Shown in pieces: positions 7,962 to 24,343 of a stretch of DNA of 64,000 bases; position 1 is the stretch's first letter, and the number at the start of each line of letters is the position of its first letter. The stretch is from Acrasis kona (lineage: Eukaryota; Heterolobosea; Eutetramitea; Acrasida; Acrasidae): contig JAOPGA020000496.1 in NCBI GenBank assembly GCA_026419775.2, positions 1 to 64,000 on the forward strand, read 5' to 3'. The notes beneath the pieces were generated by a model. That model made no database searches, was not told where the DNA came from, and saw nothing but the letters and a program-made list of their open reading frames with translations. The translations under genes and the position numbers were made by a program.

Positions 7962-10900
7962 TTATTCGAAAATGCGAATACAATGGATTACCTCTGCTCT
8001 GCAGATGGGACACACACCTCTCTCATACACTCTTTCCGCACATTCTTCACATACAACTTTATGTCCACATGGAGAGCAAGCATGACTCTTTGCTGCATCC
8101 ATGCAAATCACACACTCTTGTTGTTCATCTGCTCGAACAACTTCAACGCCTCCAAATAAATCTCTCATCTGCATGATATGGGATGCAGTCGGTCTATCCA
8201 CATCTCTTCTCTGCAACAACTTGATGACCAATTCAATCAAGGGTTGAGGATAAATTCCACTAATCTAAATGGGTCATCCAAAATCCAAAAGCATGATGTA
8301 ATACTCACGTTCATATCTTGTTTCAATTCACTTCTGAACTCGGACAGCCTTTCGTCGGCAATGGCTTCGAGATAATCGTTGGACATGTTCTTGTGTTTGA
8401 GGCTCATTAATTCATACAAGACACATCCGAAGGACCACATGTCGGTTTGGCCAGAATATGGTTTTTTGGATTTCATCTCAAAGCTCATGTAATCTTCTTC
8501 TCCAGCAATGATTATCTTGTTGTTGCTGCTTTTTGCGAGGCCAAAGTCCCCAATCACTAGAGATTCTCCCTCAGGAGTGAGGTAAATGTTTTTGGGTTTA
8601 ATGTCACGATGAATAATCCCTTTGGCATGGATCACTTCCAAGCCAGATGCTAATTGATGAGCGATGCGCAAAACGACCTACAAACAATGATAAATGTCGA
8701 ATCAAAAGTACATACGGGTGCGGGGATGTTTTGGTTTTGCAGTCTCGCTCTTGATAGTAGTGCGTCCATGTCGCCTCCTTGATAATGGGGGGTGACAAGA
8801 CAGAATCTTTGAAAGGTGGAGGTGTGTTCCGTAAAGTAATCCAAGATGGTAATCACATTTTGATGCTGGATGGATTGGACGGTGATGCACTACAAAAGGG
8901 TTAGCGTCAATGCGGTCATACTTACTTCCTTCATCCCCACTTGAATGTCGCTCGCAACAACAACGGTATAGGCCTTGACAACAACGCGATCTCGGTTGGC
9001 GTTTTCACACAAATAAACCTTTGCTTGAGCCCCATGCTGCAACTCTTCAATAATCTTGTAATCCCCAATCATGTTTGACTCCTGCCTTTGAATGCGTAGC
9101 TGATTGCGAACATTGGCGACGGATCTTGCATTGTGTTTCAGCTCCTCGGGCAAATGTTCTTGTTGGCCCGCTGCAAAAAATTCTTCCTCTTCGACTTTGA
9201 CTAATCGAGTAATCTTGTTGATTTCATTCCTCTTGATGGCTCGCTTCTTGATGGATTCGGATGGACTACTGCCCTCAAGTTCTTGTTCTTCAATTTCGAG
9301 ATTGATCGAAGATAATGCAATTTCGGCCGCTCTCAATTCACGTCTTGAAGAAATGACTTTTTGCTTGGCTTGTTCATAACGCGTGATGCTTTCCCTTTCC
9401 CTCTTCAGTTGCTCTTGATACTCATCAACTAGATGTTGACGTGCCTGAACGAGGTGGCTCTCTGGGTAATCTCTCTTGAACTCAAATAGACTGTCGGTGA
9501 TTTGTTCCAATTGTTGGTGGTCGATGATGGGACGGCTGTCAAGGGCATTGGATAGTTCTTCCACGACCACTTGGTGATCTTCCTCAGCAACATTCTTCTG
9601 GTTGATGATTTGTTGATCGAGTTGTTGACCGACATCACAACCTTGAATATGCTCTTTGAGTTGTGCTTTGGCTTTTTGAAGCTTATCCAAACTCTTTTCG
9701 ACTTGGGCAATGTTGGTCTGAATGGCTCTGGCCTTGGTTCGGTCATCGTTCAATCTCACAAGAGTCAAGCGCATCAAATCAGAAAAGGTGAGTTGGTTTT
9801 CAAAATCTTTTTTCGCTTGTTCACGTTGTTGTTCCTCAAGTTGCAGTTGCTCTCGTTGCTGTTGCTGTCTTTCTTTTTGAAAACATTCATCACACTAAAA
9901 AGTAAAACTTAATCAGTAGATAAAAACTTACTTGCTACAAATGTCAAATTATTGTGAACACTAAAAATTCACCCACTACAGTTTAAATGTATTTATGTTA
10001 GCGAAATGGTAGGTTATTTGTTACTTACAAACTATAACAACACAGTGTTAATGCTCGTTGTTGCTTATTTGTTACTTACATGCTATTATAACACAGTGTT
10101 AGTGCTATTTGTTGCTTATTCGTTACTTACTTCCTATAACAACACAGTGTTAGTGCTCGTTGTTGCTTATTTGTTACTTACAATCTACAACAACACAGTG
10201 TTAGTGCTCGTTATTGCTTATTTATTACTTACACACTATTATAACACAGTGTTAGTGCTCACTGTTGCTTGTTTGTTACTTACTTCCTATAATAACAGTA
10301 TTAGTGCTCGCTGTTGCTTATTTGTTACTTACTTCCTATAATAACACAGTGTTAGTGCTCGTCATTGCTTGTTAGTTACTTACATACTATAATAACACAT
10401 TGTTAGTGCTCATTGTTGCTTATTTGTTACTTACATACTATAATAACACAGTGTTAGTGCTGGTTATTGCTTATTTGTTACTTACTTCCTTATAACAACA
10501 CAGTGTTAGTGCTCGTTGTTGCTTATTTGTTACTTACTCCCTATAACAAAACAATGTTAGTGCTCGTTGTTGCTTATTTATTACTTACACACTATTATAA
10601 CACAGTGTTAGTGCTCGTTCTTGCTTATTTGTTACTTACATGCTATTATAACACAGTGTTAGTACTCGCTGTTGCTTATTTGTTACTTACAAACTATAAT
10701 AACACAGTGTTAATGCTCGTTGTTGCTTATTTGTTACTTACTCCCTATAACAACACAGTGTTAGTGCTCGTTGTTGCTTATTTGTTACTTACAATCTATA
10801 ACAACACAGTGTTAGTGCTCGTTGTTGCTTATTTATTACTTACACACTATTATAACACAGTGTTAGTACTCGCTGTTGCTTATTTGTTACTTACAAACTA

Positions 10901-11139
10901 TAATAACACAGTATTAATGCTCGTTGTTGCTTATTTGTTACTTACTCCCTATAACAACACAGTGTTAGTGCTCATTGTTGCTTATTTGTTACTTACCCCC
11001 TACAAATGTAATGATATATGAAACGAAGCATTTTGTTAGTTGGCATGCCTATTATATTCTACTTACACACTAAATGTTTAAAATCTTTTAGTATATCGTG
11101 ACGTACGCTTGTTGTTGGCGTTTCTTTTGTCCACGGCAT
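7962..11139 (-). CDS. Zinc motif, coiled coil, protein kinase, RING protein; 5' part in one-codon exons
   Basis: Every exon length is a multiple of three and every junction is phase 0. Exon 1 (11139-11107) starts MPWTKETPTTS. Twenty-two 3-nt exons follow (see the repeat entry), then 9894-8926, 8889-8716, 8677-8309 and 8264-7962, for about 637 residues. The long exon has a CDECF start and a Gln/Glu-rich coiled coil, then a kinase N-lobe (EELQHGAQAKVYL, VVVKAY). Next come HRDIKPKNIYL, IGDFGLAK and WSFGCVLYEL of the kinase C-lobe. The last exon is a C3HC4 RING of the MGRN/IAP type (CVICMD, CGHKVVCEEC, CPICRAEV). This suggests a Ser/Thr kinase coupled to ubiquitin ligase activity; substrates are unknown. 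The conserved 3' introns are 36-44 bp. If the array is instead removed as one 1,212-bp intron (9895-11106), the product is 22 residues shorter and still in frame. Confidence 0.8.
9932..11069 (-). repeat. Tandem array of intron-like units separated by 22 one-codon exons
   Basis: Seen on the minus strand: each 51-bp unit is GTAAGTAACAAATAAGC...CACTAACACTG...TATAG (48 bp) followed by a 3-nt cassette. Cassettes (highest coordinate first) lie at 11067, 10997, 10946, 10895, 10844, 10793, 10742, 10691, 10640, 10589, 10538, 10486, 10435, 10384, 10333, 10284, 10233, 10182, 10131, 10080, 10029 and 9932, each 3 nt long. They read CGGFCIGFHCG for the first eleven and EYYEECIEHFQ for the last eleven; none is a stop. 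Most introns are exactly 48 bp. The exceptions are 46 bp (10287-10332), 49 bp (10489-10537), 67 bp (11000-11066) and 94 bp (9935-10028). The donor is GTAAGT after every cassette (a GTACGT donor ends the ATG exon), and every unit ends in AG. Confidence 0.85.
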
Positions 11140-11209
11140 GGTCCAATCGAGTTTCAAAAAAATTGGTAGGTTGACCATCCAATTAATTTATATATTGTAA
11201 AACTGACCA

Positions 11210-18454: not shown

Positions 18455-21400
18455 ATGCAATTGGACTGTATCGAGATGACAATTACAATCAACAATTCCT
18501 ACGACATGTCCAACCACCCCACGCAGCCTTATGACGTCGTAAAGGTCCTGCACAAAAGTAGACACTCGGCAGTGTTTAGAGCGAAGTATAACGAGGAGAT
18601 GGTCATTATAAAAACACATCCGAACAAGTTTGCGTCAACAAAGGAAGCAGAGTCATTAAAGAAGGAGTTTCAAATAGGAAAAAAGATTTGTGCCAACTCA
18701 AACCACGTACCGAAATATCTTCAGCTTTTGGAAAACTCGTTCGATAATAATGTAACGGTAGCATTCGTTATGGAGGATAGGGGTGGCGAAAATTTATCAC
18801 ACTCCATTCCACCAAAAGGATTTCCTATACCGAACTTTTTAGACGTTGCGATACAATGTTCACTTGCACTTCAAACAATACACAGGAACAACATTACACA
18901 TAAAGACATTAAGCCTTCCAACATCCAAGTATGTGAGGAAGGCGACATTATAATTTATGATTTTGGTTGTGCAACCTCACTGCAGGAGGAATCAGAACAA
19001 GCATCTGCGAAACTAAATAAAATGTATGGTACTTTGGCGTACCTTAGCCCAGAACAAGTATGTCATCCTTCCACGTCTTTTTCCATTAATATTCAATTAG
19101 ACAGGGAGGATAAATAGAAACACTGACTTTAGAACCGACTTTTATTCATTGGTAATAAAACATTTTTGTTGTGTCTCACGCATACTTTATAGGGTGTCAC
19201 ATTTTTTCAGATTATAAGCAACACCCTTCCTTTCGTAAGCAGTGATGTCTTGGAGTTGATTCACTGTCATTTGGCTGTTGCTCCCCCTCCTTTGCCCACA
19301 TCTGTGCCTCCGGTCATACAAAGTATAATTTATAAGCTCATGAAGAAGGACGCCGCCGATAGATATCAATCGTGTCAAGGCGTCATTCACGATCTTCAAC
19401 TATGTAAATCATATCTGAAATGGGACGAAACACTTGGCGTCTACACAATAAAGAACTTCACTCTAGGAAACAATGACTTTCAAGAGCGGTTTGTAATACC
19501 AAAAAAATTATATGGAAGAAAAGAAAACTTTGAAAAATTAGATCTTGCCTACAAGAGAGTGTTGCATCAAGGTAACTCAATCACTCATCATCCTTCTAAC
19601 CCTTTTGTAGGCAGCACCGAACTTGTATTAGTGAGCGGTTATAGCGGCGTTGGAAAATCAACTTTCGTAAGAGAAATACAAATGCAGAACCTTGGATACT
19701 TCACTTTTGGTAAATTCGATCAACTAGACAAAGGAGTCGCATACAGTGCGATCGGACAAAGCATATCTCACCTACTCAAACAATTAGAAGCACAGAGCGA
19801 AGACGTCATTGCGTTGTGGGTGCAGCGACTGCTTGGTACTTTGAATGGATACGGACAATTGTTACTTCCCTTCGTGCCCAACTTGGAACAATTCATCGGC
19901 CCACAACCACACATTCAAAACTTGACACCGACTGAGAGCAAATCAAGACTTAAGCACCTCATCACCAAATTTATCATCGAGTTCACATCAAAGACATCAC
20001 CGCTCGTCTTGTTCCTTGATGACATTCAGTGGGCCGATCTGGAGAGTTTGGATGTGTTAAAATCATTTCTAAGCGAAAGACACGTATTATTGATTTGCGC
20101 CTATAGAGATAACGAAGTTCATCCTGGACACTGCACCTATAACTTTATACAAGACGTGTGCGAAAGCATGAAGGTGACCGAAATACATTTGAACCCATTA
20201 TTGTTGGAACATGTGACCGAATGGACATGTGACACGTTACGAATTACCGATCCAAAATTAGTGTTGGATCTGTCCAATTTGTTGTTCGCGAAAACAAATG
20301 GAAATCCATTCTTCATGAAGATGTTTTTACAAAATTTACATAGCGAGGGATTGTTGGTTGCTGTCGGTAAGCAATGGACGTGGGACATGGATAGGGTGAG
20401 CAGCATGAGCGCGACCGATAACGTTGTGGATTTGATGACATCGAGGATCACCAAATTACGCGGCAAATCCAAAAAGTGCATCCAGTACGCTAGTTGTCTG
20501 GGCAATCGATTTTCGTGCAAACATTTATCAATCATCTTGGATCAATCGGATCAGTCAACCAGAGAAGATTTGTATGAATCCATGGATAATGGATTGTTGA
20601 TTCGCATTTCCAACGAATACCAATTCGTTCACGATAAGGTACAAGAAGCAGCCTATGGTACGCTGAGCCAACAAGAAAAGGCAGAAATGCATTTCTTGAT
20701 CGGAACAAAGATGAGCGAATGGTGCGAATCTGATTCTAGATTATTCTGCGAAACGACCGATCACCTCAACAAGGGCATCAGCACCATTCGTGGAGACGAT
20801 AACGAACAAATATGGACCTTCATCGCCAAGAGTAATTTCAAAGCATGCAAGATTGCAGAAAAGGCTGCTTCGTTCTCCACGTGCTTAAAATATTGCTTGA
20901 GCGGAATCGACGCCTTCGAGAGCATCGGACCCAATCCATGGGAAACTCATTACGAAATTGGTCTCGAACTATACCTACAATGTGGATTCTCTCACCTGAT
21001 ATTAGGCGAAATCGACAAGAGCAGCGTCGTGTTTGATTTGTTGCTACAACATACCAAACGCATACAAGACACTGCCAGAGTCTACTTGTACAAGGTGCAA
21101 CAAAGAGGATTATGTAGCGACATTTTGGGTGCCGTTGAAATTGGTTGTTATGCGGTGAGCCACCTATTCAACATTAACTTGCCCCAAGAAAAAGAAGAGA
21201 TACAAAAAATGTTGGACTTGGAAATGGATAAGGTCATTTCGTTAGTCAGCGCTATGAGCCTCAAAGATTCACAACTAGTGGTGGATCACCTGCTCGATAG
21301 AGAACACGATGCCGAACAAAAGGCATTAATTCAATTACTATCCGAAACCACAACCACTGCATATCAAGCCAATCCTTTATTATTTCGATTGATCGACGTG

Positions 21401-24343
21401 TTGGCAGTAAACACAATGTTTGAATTTGGATTAGATGCCTCCAGTAGTTCGTGTAGCATTGGTTGGTTGGCTGTCTCTTTATTCAGCATGAGCGCACATT
21501 TAGGAGATTGTAAAGTGTTTCGAATTGCAAAACTATTGAGCATGTTATCGCTCAAGTGTTGTTTGGATTACTTTCCACATAACGTACCCGAGAGAACTCG
21601 CTCTCATCACTTATTCGCTCTGTTTCATAGTTGTTGGATGAATCCAATCGAGCAAGTATTTAGCGTTGCTGCAAAAGTAGTCGCTTGGGGATTAGAAAGC
21701 GGAGAGTTGCTCTATGCAATGTATTCTTACGTAACATCGTGTCCAGCCATGTTATATACCGGAAAAAACATTCAAAAATCACTAGAGTATATCGATCGAT
21801 GTAAATTGGTTGCTCAAAAGTATAATAATCAAGTAAGCATTCATTGCATCGATAGCATGTCCATTATATTCATGTACCTTACCAAAGACGCGAGAGCTCC
21901 TCAAGAAGAATCGAGATTAGTGAGCTTGTTGCTATCTAGCAGCGACATGTACGTGTACACTCAATTTAATGTTTTAAAAGTCATGGTGAATTATTTACTA
22001 AGCGATGACTTGATATTGGATGCTGAACAAGTAGGTATTCAACTCAACGAACAGTTCGATCATTTGGATGATTTGCTTCAATTCGTGACCAGTCAGTTCA
22101 GTACCGCTTACTATGCTCTATTCTGTTGTTTACACTGTTTAAGAGTAATCAAACAAATCGATAATCACGACTCGCCAGTTTACATTCAATTACTGAATCG
22201 ACTAAACGTGAATAAGGCAAAGTTATTGGGGTGGAGTCAAAATTGCGAAAGTAATTTTAAAAACAAGTACCTGATGGTGGAGGCCCAAGTACAGGCCTAC
22301 ATCGAACAAAAGGGTTATGCAGCGCTGCAACTCTTCGAAGAGGCCATTAGTGCCAGCCAACACTTTCCACACGAACAAGCCATTTGTTATCAATTGGAAG
22401 CTTATTTCCTGTTGAGCATGAATAATCAAAAATTTGCAAAGGCTAGCATATCATGTGCTTATCAACTCTTTTCAGAGTGGGGCGCTCATGCAAAATGTGA
22501 GCAATTGGATGATCGATTCGGTCCCTTCATGATCACGCCACAAGACAACGGTAACAATAGCATCCGCAGCCAATCATCTTCGAACAGTCACACTTTATTA
22601 ACGACCAGCACCATCGTAATGCCCAACGCATCGTTCGATATCGAGAGCGTATTACGCACCAGTCAGTTAATATCCAGCACGATCGACATGGACGACTTGT
22701 TGTGCAACAGCATCAAAATCATCATGGAAGCTGCAGGAGCAACCAGCGCCACTATTGTGTTGGATGACATTGTGGTGGCCACTCACCAAAACGACGTCAC
22801 TTCCTTACCCAACATACCCATTAGCGAATGGAACCAACACTTGTTGTTGATCGAACACGTCAAAATGACAAGAAACAGCGTGGTCAGCTTGAATTGTGAA
22901 ATGGACAATAGACCATTCATAGCTCACAAGAACGAATGTAGGAGTTTATTGTGCATGCCAATCATCCATCAGTCCATTCTCAAGGGCGTCCTATTGGCAC
23001 AAAACAATTACTTATCCAATAGTTTCAAACCAGATTGCGTGGGCGTGATTAGCGTTTTGATCAACCAAATTGCAATCAGTTTGGAAAATTCGAAATTTTA
23101 CATTTCGCAAATGAAGAACATGGAGGAACTCACCAGAGTACAAACAAGAAGGGTCCAAGAAGAACTGAATTATACCAGAAAACAAGAAGAATTCATCGAT
23201 CGAATTTGTCACGAGATTCGTAATCCCATTCAAGGCATTTTGGGTAATTGCGAATGGATGACCACCTTGTTACAAGAAGAAAGACCAAACATCGACATTC
23301 TACGGGAATGTATCAACAGCATAAGTGTTTGTGGTAAATACCAAAAAGTAATCACCGACGACGTGATCACATTGAGCAAATTAGAATTCGGAAAGATCAA
23401 ATTAGTAAACACTCAAACCACAGCTTCGCAAATCATGGATGACTTGTCGGTCATGTTCGCCAACGAAGCGCGACTAAAGAAATTAACTTGGAAATGTGAA
23501 TGTGATTCCGAATGCGTCGACAAGGTGGTGGAAGTGGATGCCAACAAGGTGATCGAAGTCATGACCAATCTAATCACCAACGCAATCAAATTCACATCTC
23601 ATGGCACCATTCAAATTTCCTGTAACCTGACCGAACTATCCACACAATCGGTTCGTTTGCAATTTCAAGTGAAAGACACTGGCTGTGGCATCGAAGAATC
23701 AGAGCTAGAAACCATTTTCGATCGATTCTCGCAGGCCACTCAACGAACGTTTAGTGATTATGGCGGCAGTGGTCTCGGACTGTTCATTAGTAAAATGTAC
23801 GCTAATCTAATGGAAGGAACCATTAGCGTACAAAGCAAAAAGTGGAGCGGCAGCACCTTTAGCTTTAGCATCAAGTGTAATGTGGTGCGCGCCGAGCCCA
23901 GTGCAGCGGTACCAACCGCGGAGGTCATTACGCCGGTGGAGGTGCCCAAACTAAAGGTGTTGGTGGTGGAAGATAATAAAATCAATCAGCGGGTGTTGGT
24001 TAGAATGTTACAATCTTGTAATTGTGAATATGTGATTGCGAACGATGGCGTGGAGGGACTGGAGAAGTTCAGCGAACAAGAATTTGATCTGATTTATATG
24101 GACGTGGCGATGCCTCGTATGGATGGATTCGAGTGCACTAGAAAAATTAGGCAGATGGAGCAGTCGACGGGCGTGGACAGGGGCGTGTTGATTGTTGGGT
24201 TGAGCGGTAATGCTAGACAGGAACATGTTGACATGAGCAAGGAGGCTGGTATGGATTTGTATCAAATCAAACCTTGCTCGTCCAAGGATGTGAATCATGT
24301 GATTGAAAATTATAAAACTTTATCAAGAAGGAGGAGTTCGTGA
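18455..24343 (+). CDS. Giant hybrid histidine kinase: Ser/Thr kinase-like, AAA ATPase, GAF, HisKA/HATPase, receiver
   Basis: Three exons (18455-19057, 19101-19151, 19193-24343) with 43- and 41-bp introns give 1,934 residues. The N-terminus is a kinase-like domain (HKDIKPSNIQV, YDFGCA, then TDFYSLGVTFFQI restored by splicing). An AAA/STAND ATPase follows with Walker A SGYSGVGKSTFV (about 19,640) and Walker B LVLFLDDIQWAD, and then a long helical, TPR-like stretch. After a GAF region (about 22,650-23,080) come the H-box FIDRICHEIRNPIQGIL, the N-box NLITNAIKF, and the G boxes DTGCGIE and GGSGLGLFI. The receiver has VVEDNKINQ, phospho-acceptor Asp in YMDVAMPRMDG, and Lys in QIKP. This architecture is known from fungal Chk1/Mak-type sensors for oxidative or osmotic stress. 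No membrane segment is visible, so it is probably cytosolic. Confidence 0.95.

Follow-up and report, generated by a model that had tools for sequence, protein, structure and literature searches.

A probable run of one-codon exons among short duplicated introns at the 5' end of a protein kinase-RING gene of Acrasis kona

Structure of the locus

The window analyzed here comprises 64,000 nucleotides (nt) at the start of contig C237 (181,095 bases) of the slime-mold-like heterolobosean amoeba Acrasis kona. Its minus strand carries a gene for a protein kinase with a RING finger, and between exon 1 and the large exon of this gene lie 24 GT..AG segments and 23 three-base cassettes (69 nt), all in phase 0. 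This arrangement is probably a true array of 23 one-codon exons set among 24 short spliceosomal introns, at the N-terminal end of a multi-copy gene. The protein encoded downstream of the array shares 100% amino acid identity with A. kona AKO1_007921 over 93% of the query (564 aa). Its domains are a protein kinase (PF00069; E 2.4e-41) and, at the C terminus, a RING finger (PF13920; E 4.3e-11), and the region N-terminal to the kinase domain has a coiled look, as judged by eye. The deposited AKO1_007921 begins at an internal methionine (MRLTLV) with its codon at 9772-9774, so that exon 1, the array and 40 large-exon codons are missing from it.

Exon 1 (11107-11139, minus strand, as are all parts of the gene) is 33 nt long and consists of an ATG and 10 further codons (MPWTKETPTTS). 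A second in-frame ATG is found at 11176-11178, 13 codons upstream of the ATGCCG of exon 1. In the paralogue on contig C614, an in-frame TGA stands one codon before ATGCCG (GAT TGA ACC ATG), which supports ATGCCG as the start. The window copy has TGG at that place and could, given the upstream ATG, start at either ATG. Exon 1 is followed by a non-repeat intron 1 of 37 nt (11070-11106; GTACGT..TTTAG), the predicted one-codon exon TGT (C; 11067-11069), a non-repeat intron 2 of 67 nt (11000-11066) and the predicted exon GGG (G; 10997-10999). Intron 1 is also 37 nt long in C614 and in the copy on C317, intron 2 is 68 nt long in C614, TGT is identical in C614 and in the C317 fragment, and GGG corresponds to GGA in C614. 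The next 19 units (10029-10996) each consist of an intron of 46-49 nt and one codon (G F C I G F H C G E Y Y E E C I E H F). An intron of 53 nt (9976-10028), with 15 unit-like bases at its start and a remainder that is mostly its own, leads to TGG (W; 9973-9975). A non-repeat intron of 38 nt with the donor GTGAAT (9935-9972) leads to CAA (Q; 9932-9934); both codons are identical in the copies on C614, C757 and C849. The last intron (9895-9931; 37 nt) has a TAG acceptor in frame with the next codon and precedes the large exon (8926-9894), which begins with TGTGATGAATG at 9894 and encodes the CDECFQKER.. region and the start of the kinase domain. The segment lengths in order are 37, 67, nineteen of 46-49, 53, 38 and 37 nt.

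The cassettes translate as C GGFCIGFHCGEYYEECIEHFW Q. Nineteen of the 23 lie within the 51-bp repeat, and the other four (TGT, GGG, TGG and CAA) adjoin introns that are not repeat copies. Seventeen of the 19 repeat introns are 48 nt long, one is 49 nt and one 46 nt, and the cassette is 3 nt in all 19. The 49-nt intron lies in a unit with an extra A (10486-10537; cassette GAA), and it ends in AAG (10489-10491), not in YAG; the extra A may be either a real variant or a sequencing homopolymer error. An in-frame stop occurs inside 22 of the 24 introns. At all 23 junctions the gap from acceptor to donor is 3 nt. A recursive splicing site is a zero-nucleotide exon, with the acceptor abutting the donor, and the junctions here are not of that kind. 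At the DNA level the gene has many consecutive predicted internal exons well below 30 nt, as microexon-rich genes do. In a cassette-bearing mRNA, exon 1 would run directly into TGTGGG, and TTTTGGCAATGTGATGAATG would be another mark of it, whereas a cassette-free joint would lead from exon 1 straight to TGTGATGAATG. In the repeat introns (10029-10996), little variation among units is also seen at AAGCAA and, next to the branch site, at the near-palindrome AACACTGTGTT.

The first-pass annotation of this DNA had described 22 consecutive one-codon exons (66 nt) with the residues C, G, F, I, H, E, Y and Q and no stops. The run itself and the absence of stops hold, but the count rises to 23 cassettes (69 nt) and W has to be added to the residues. 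The earlier coordinates were right in joining the ATG exon of 11 codons to the kinase gene at 9894 with every junction in phase 0, and so was the anatomy of the unit, with a GTAAGT donor, a branch motif, an acceptor and a 3-nt cassette.

Repeat structure and genome-wide searches

The array is far from a chance pattern, and the earlier observation of it as real was confirmed by repeat finding, shuffles and chain counts. Tandem Repeats Finder reports a period of 51 with 19.3 copies and 87% matches. A 25-base unit core with ≤3 mismatches matched 18 times in the window, and the largest count in 100 shuffles was 0. Intron-like segments of 30-70 nt that end in YAG and follow each other at a spacing of exactly k nt formed chains of up to 12 in the array at k = 3 and of at most 2 in the remaining window at any k from 1 to 12. 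The chain is of 12, not 24, because the AAG acceptor breaks the run.

The genome searched comprises 37.35 Mb in 1,021 contigs, and the published size is 44.02 Mb (PMC11589745), so small contigs may be absent. For the paired pattern GTAAGT..TAG-NNN-GTAAGT..TAG, all 30 of the 30 matches listed lie in three arrays of the kinase-RING family (reversed-pattern controls, 1 + 5), and the same pattern with a 4-nt gap has one match (controls, 6 + 12). A search for one-codon exons with CTAAC on both sides gave 23 matches with GTAAGT, 22 of them in the arrays (controls, 1 + 1). With GTRNGT it gave 26, of which 22 belong to the arrays; the 4 from other places include one identical pair. As the reversed controls gave 2 + 4 matches, the candidates outside the arrays are at control level. 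The two-codon version of the search gave 2 matches (controls, 1 + 4).

Constant introns and variable codons

Variation was compared among 30 standard units from three arrays, 2 of 32 units being left out for length. The GTAAGT donor, the TAA of the branch site and the TAG acceptor vary in 0 of the 30. Heterozygosity is 0.67, 0.65 and 0.49 in the three cassette columns and averages 0.08 over the intron, and only 3 of 20,825 three-column sets are equally variable, the cassette itself being among the 3. The first-pass annotation had noted that the cassettes vary while the introns are nearly constant, the reverse of a neutral minisatellite, and these values bear it out. The concentration of variation in the cassette and the invariance of the core splice motifs are not those of a neutral intronic minisatellite. 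Five pairs of units have identical introns, and the cassette differs in all five. Two segment duplications that look recent were picked by eye because their units are alike (C237 units 1-3 vs 5-7, and C757 units 1-3 vs 7-9); in these, the introns differ at 5 of 288 sites and the cassettes at 3 of 18 (p 0.008). Taken together, these comparisons indicate that the introns are held and the codons change.

None of the 32 repeat cassettes is a stop, which 13 of 20,000 column shuffles match. As the units are related by duplication, this avoidance of stops is suggestive only. Length differences are found among the introns (46/48/49; 67/68; 38/39; 37/36) and none among the cassettes. Those beside non-repeat introns are all exactly 3 nt, TGT in all three copies that extend to it (C237, C614 and C317) and TGG and CAA in four, and the GGG/GGA cassette of two copies shows a silent difference. 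The one-codon size of these four cassettes is the point that we weigh most heavily in favor of splicing as the reason for the pattern. The rates of exon 1 and intron 1 (11 of 33 and 5 of 37 differing sites) are not significantly different (p 0.085).

Paralogues in the same genome

A query made of the large exon's first 323 residues found 7 places (window included). The array 3' end as query gave 4 places, and exon 1 with introns 1-2 gave 3, the window being one of each. C614 (L009) keeps ATGCCG and the 33 nt of exon 1, has 4 repeat units with the cassettes C G D K G Y W Q, and encodes an open protein of 623 aa. C757 (L010) has at least 9 repeat units, with the cassettes C G K F E G C G R F W Q; its contig ends within the array, and the frame is open for 611 aa from CDEC on. 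Both arrays keep the donors, acceptors, 3-nt cassettes and phase. C849 (L027), without exon 1 and most of the array, retains TGG, CAA and their introns, with other DNA upstream, and has one in-frame TAA in the large exon. C317 (L028) retains exon 1 as a fragment of 32 nt, intron 1, TGT and part of intron 2, followed by other DNA. No array was found in the stretches examined of C996 (a 5'-truncated kinase) and C394 (a divergent kinase).

The kinase-RING family of A. kona thus has several copies, including truncated or broken ones (C849, C317 and C996), which points to repeated duplication and decay. Reverse transcriptase frames (PF00078; E 1.5e-11 and 4.9e-5) lie beside the C317 exon 1 fragment (L028 2467-3398, minus strand), and a retroelement may be present near its breakpoint. 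A DDE_Tnp_4 transposase frame (PF13359; E 1.8e-29) lies beside the truncated kinase on C996 (L030 2505-3083, minus strand), and between the two a short GAGTAACTT-like repeat was noticed by eye (L030 about 2390-2470).

Between the acceptor and the deposited methionine lie 40 codons, which were compared among four paralogues. Their ratios of nonsynonymous to synonymous substitution (Ka/Ks) range from 0.08 to 0.36 over the six pairs; these values are noisy, with 14-20 synonymous sites, a Q/E-rich repetitive alignment and 30 codons for the C849 pairs. These codons look to be under protein constraint. The large exon is 969, 969, 990 and 927 nt long in the four copies, always a multiple of three. 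Constrained codons behind an in-frame TAG acceptor imply that the frame must be entered by splicing from an upstream exon. For the rest of the large exon, Ka/Ks is 0.24-0.33 among the three array-bearing copies, and for C849 it is 0.78 vs C237 (Ks 0.036), 0.23 vs C614 and 0.21 vs C757. The value of 0.78 is consistent with recent decay in a copy whose 5' end is gone, and the values vs C614 and C757 would average over a longer time.

Comparison with other introns of A. kona

Published A. kona introns are 9-95 bp long and number on average 1-2 per intron-bearing gene, with a maximum of 21 (AKO1_015466), as reported with the genome (PMC11589745). The 24 array introns and 3 more in the gene would exceed this maximum. 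Ab initio intron finding in the window, from open frames and codon bias, gave too much noise to yield a length distribution, and spaced motif counts were used instead. GTAAGT-CTAAC-TAG has 380 genome matches at 27-72 nt, array units included, and 74 at 89-134 nt (equally many spacings), of which 27 span array units and 47 lie outside. Among 100 short matches listed, 85 are outside the arrays, with a median of 39 nt, a range of 30-57 nt and 11 of 85 at ≥48 nt; these rows include alternative acceptors of one donor and copies of one gene. The repeat introns (46-49 nt, GTAAGT, CTAAC-like) match the length, donor and branch pattern of these other short introns. Intron 2, at 67 nt, is longer than the listed 30-57 nt and inside the published 9-95 bp.

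Other short introns recur identically or nearly so on contigs C10, C129, C207, C279 and others (e.g., GTAAGTAATTCATCACGACAGCTTAACTAAC..). They are probably gene-family copies, and mobile introns are worth considering.

Other features of the window

Beyond the large exon, the remainder of the kinase domain (PF00069) and the C-terminal RING finger (PF13920) are encoded at 7962-8889 on the minus strand, with introns within or before this 3' part at 8890-8925, 8678-8715 and 8265-8308. A large open frame elsewhere in the window (19250-24343) has AAA_16 ATPase, histidine kinase and response regulator domains, in agreement with the genome paper, which notes an abundance of hybrid histidine kinases in A. 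kona (PMC11589745).

Growth of the array

Two growth models had been proposed in the first pass, tandem duplication of one intron plus a codon and repeated introner insertion. The evidence supports the former and not the latter, near-exact motif searches with lower-bound counts having located the unit in this one gene family only. In C757 a duplication of six units is seen, with a mean of 1.0 intron difference in 3 pairs at offset 6; their cassettes are identical in 2 of 3 pairs, and the third is AAA/AGA. In C237 the intron end ATAATAG stands before 5 of 5 TGT/CAT cassettes and before no other among 17 standard units (1 in 6,188), and GTAAGTAAT follows 3 of 3 TGT cassettes and no other among 18 adjacent pairs. 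This linkage of cassettes to neighboring intron ends suggests that the codons travel with them. A search for a higher-order period by cassette repeats in C237 placed offset 4 best without significance (597 of 5000 shuffles were as good).

A 20-base unit motif with ≤2 mismatches has at least 32 matches, 32 of 32 on C237, C614 and C757 in the kinase-RING family, and a spaced unit motif has at least 25, likewise all (25 of 25) in this family. Introner invasion was rejected as near-exact motif searches, with lower-bound counts, gave no dispersed copies in unrelated genes. In most units the cassette before an intron is not the same as the one after it, unlike what a fresh target duplication would leave. 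The unit core has no exact match in viral contigs.

Predicted splicing and alternative explanations

If the array is spliced as predicted, each intron of 37-67 nt would be recognized by intron definition through its own donor, branch site and acceptor. Neighboring introns would be removed in turn, singly, because two spliceosomes cannot flank 3 nt simultaneously. For a 1-nt exon, exon definition has been described as unlikely and simultaneous removal of both flanking introns as very unlikely (PMC4674806), and in plants the introns beside microexons are apparently removed consecutively (PMC8831610). Each unit would thereby add one residue between MPWTKETPTTS and CDECFQKER. With intron signals fixed by splicing constraint and codons diversified, the N-terminal stretch would come to differ in length and sequence among paralogues; any part it might play in recognition or regulation is speculative. 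Every cassette is exactly one codon, so skipping any of them would stay in frame, and the stops inside most of the introns would make retention visible to translation by halting it. All 32 repeat cassettes preceding GTAAGT end in A or T, and the GTGAAT donor is preceded by TGG. An exon-final G can pair with U1, and in this way the final G of TGG may aid the weak GTGAAT donor.

A true intron array, as the first-pass annotation had proposed, is supported by conservation among paralogues, by the upstream coding signal up to the in-frame TAG acceptor, and by intron length and motifs typical of the genome. Several points weigh against it. The evidence is at the DNA level, and we infer both splicing and the inclusion of cassettes in mRNA from it. 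In the deposited gene model, the start codon falls within the large exon. One acceptor (AAG) and one donor (GTGAAT) are nonstandard. With the 10 distinct cassette types taken as independent draws, the absence of stops has a probability of about 0.36, and cassettes are a small target for indels, so that their constant length is not strong alone. The Ka/Ks of C849 is high only vs C237. Reversed-pattern controls exceed the intron motif (483 vs 380 at short spacings and 449 vs 74 at long ones); the reversed string has another base rate, and the comparison of short with long spacings was therefore relied on instead. The linkage of codons appears only at intron ends, which were singled out by eye, and Mantel tests on whole introns of C237 gave r = 0.10 for the preceding intron (301 of 2000 permutations as high) and r = 0.004 for the following one (952 of 2000). 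This null result suggests exchange within units since duplication. The number of units in a 1-kb array is uncertain, as the assembly was made from 454 and Illumina reads with MIRA (PMC11589745).

These assembly data, and the fact that one array runs off its contig end, would also allow a collapsed or falsely multiplied repeat. We consider such an artefact very improbable, since three contigs show differing unit variants and numbers in one layout, and the 3-nt cassettes beside non-repeat introns do not depend on the assembly of a repeat; the unit number may still be wrong. Improbable, though less so, is a single intron of 1,212 nt (9895-11106) removed in one step or recursively, with the cassettes lost and the array an intronic minisatellite, the ends of its units resembling splice sites by coincidence. 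In its favor, joining exon 1 to the large exon preserves phase 0 whether the cassettes are included or not, splice-like ends would be copied free in any tandem duplication, and the span is among the long candidates of a noisy codon-bias scan. This explanation leaves unaccounted for the status of the cassettes as the most variable columns, the four 3-nt cassettes beside non-repeat introns and the layout kept in three copies. Such an intron would also be about 13 times as long as the longest published one, and the 89-134 nt class is already thin (47 outside arrays). It is very unlikely, too, that the array lies upstream of the gene as untranslated or promoter DNA, with translation from the internal methionine at which the deposited AKO1_007921 starts (MRLTLV). 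Against this stand the low, if noisy, Ka/Ks of the 40 codons before that methionine, the multiple-of-three lengths of the large exon in four copies, the in-frame TAG acceptor that closes the exon upstream, and the in-frame stop in C849, the copy without exon 1 and most of the array. That the repeat encodes a 17-residue repeat protein on either strand is hardly worth considering. Although 51 is divisible by three and an antisense run of 187 codons is open in the stretch, every one of the six frames contains 17-49 stops across the 1,212 nt, and the introns of 49 and 46 nt put any repeat out of frame. A sense or antisense repeat protein was rejected on account of these stops and frame breaks.

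Variable inclusion, in which each transcript would carry a different subset of cassettes as a splicing-based generator of diversity, is a variant of the intron array, and its probability overlaps with that of the array. It is possible, though we think it unlikely. One-codon, stop-free cassettes would leave every ordered subset in frame, and the donors and acceptors of the units are nearly interchangeable; skipping would, however, require two-unit introns of about 97-100 nt, above the listed 30-57 nt. With similar reserve, we raise the tentative idea of a codon-per-exon diversity generator, in which every amino acid would have its own exon, open to duplication and to skipping, unequal exchange between units and variable splicing would write new in-frame N-terminal peptides, and selection would favor new codons and keep the introns fixed.

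Implications and comparison with known systems

If the mRNA carries these codons, the spliceosome of a deep-branching amoeba removes 24 introns in a row across 3-nt exons, and ordered splicing, intron definition and minimum exon size could be tested directly in a single short substrate from nature, which one genome offers with 4, at least 9 and 19 repeat units. Intron number would grow by tandem duplication together with coding sequence, at a price of 51 bp of DNA per amino acid. The deposited annotation omits the predicted one-codon exons along with the protein N terminus. Should RNA data confirm the array, it would be an extreme form of gene splitting, with part of a protein spelled codon by codon.

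The literature searched on microexons and their arrays, 3-nt exons, schistosome micro-exon genes, bicycle genes, introners and tandem duplication, Heterolobosea and Acrasis introns, in which subscription journals were mostly outside the search, yielded no gene with a run of one-codon exons, in keeping with the earlier statement that no gene with about 20 of them was known. The nearest systems in the sources consulted are the micro-exon genes (MEGs) of schistosomes and the bicycle and megacycle genes of aphids. Schistosoma mansoni MEGs have 10-20 very short exons per gene, mostly multiples of three, that are hard to annotate automatically; the exons are given as 6-81 bp in the text and 3-81 bp in the abstract, and the introns as 0.1-5 kb (PMC10526429). 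The A. kona gene resembles them in its many very short multiple-of-three exons and in its resistance to annotation. It differs in that 23 of 23 predicted exons are 3 nt, 19 of 24 introns are near-identical, the product is a kinase-RING protein, and the array introns, at 37-67 nt, are not the long introns (0.1-5 kb) that characterize MEGs. Aphid bicycle genes have about 17 exons on average and the megacycle gene more than 100 microexons, and long runs of small same-phase exons are common to them and the A. kona gene (PMC9168663). The bicycle genes encode effector-like proteins with phase 2 exons, whereas the exons predicted here are in phase 0 and belong to a kinase-RING gene.

Single microexons of 1 or 3 nt are reported from Arabidopsis APC11, plant VPS55 and Fusarium CYP621A, and 1-nt exons are spliced (PMC4674806, PMC8831610, PMC12940212). 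The proposal for APC11 and for further plant microexons is that the introns on either side are excised one by one, as we propose here. In the accounts available, microexons of this kind stand alone or as two or three adjacent longer ones (5 and 12 nt in rice; human RPS24), not in arrays. Introners and tandem-duplicated introns are similar in the multiplication of near-identical introns, and tandem duplication can create introns (PMC4457414, PMC4974935). Unlike introners as described there, the A. kona unit is found in one gene family, at one site, and appears to carry a codon along. We suggest that the A. kona gene belongs with the microexon-rich genes, with its own feature in the combination of codon-sized exons and duplicated mini-introns.

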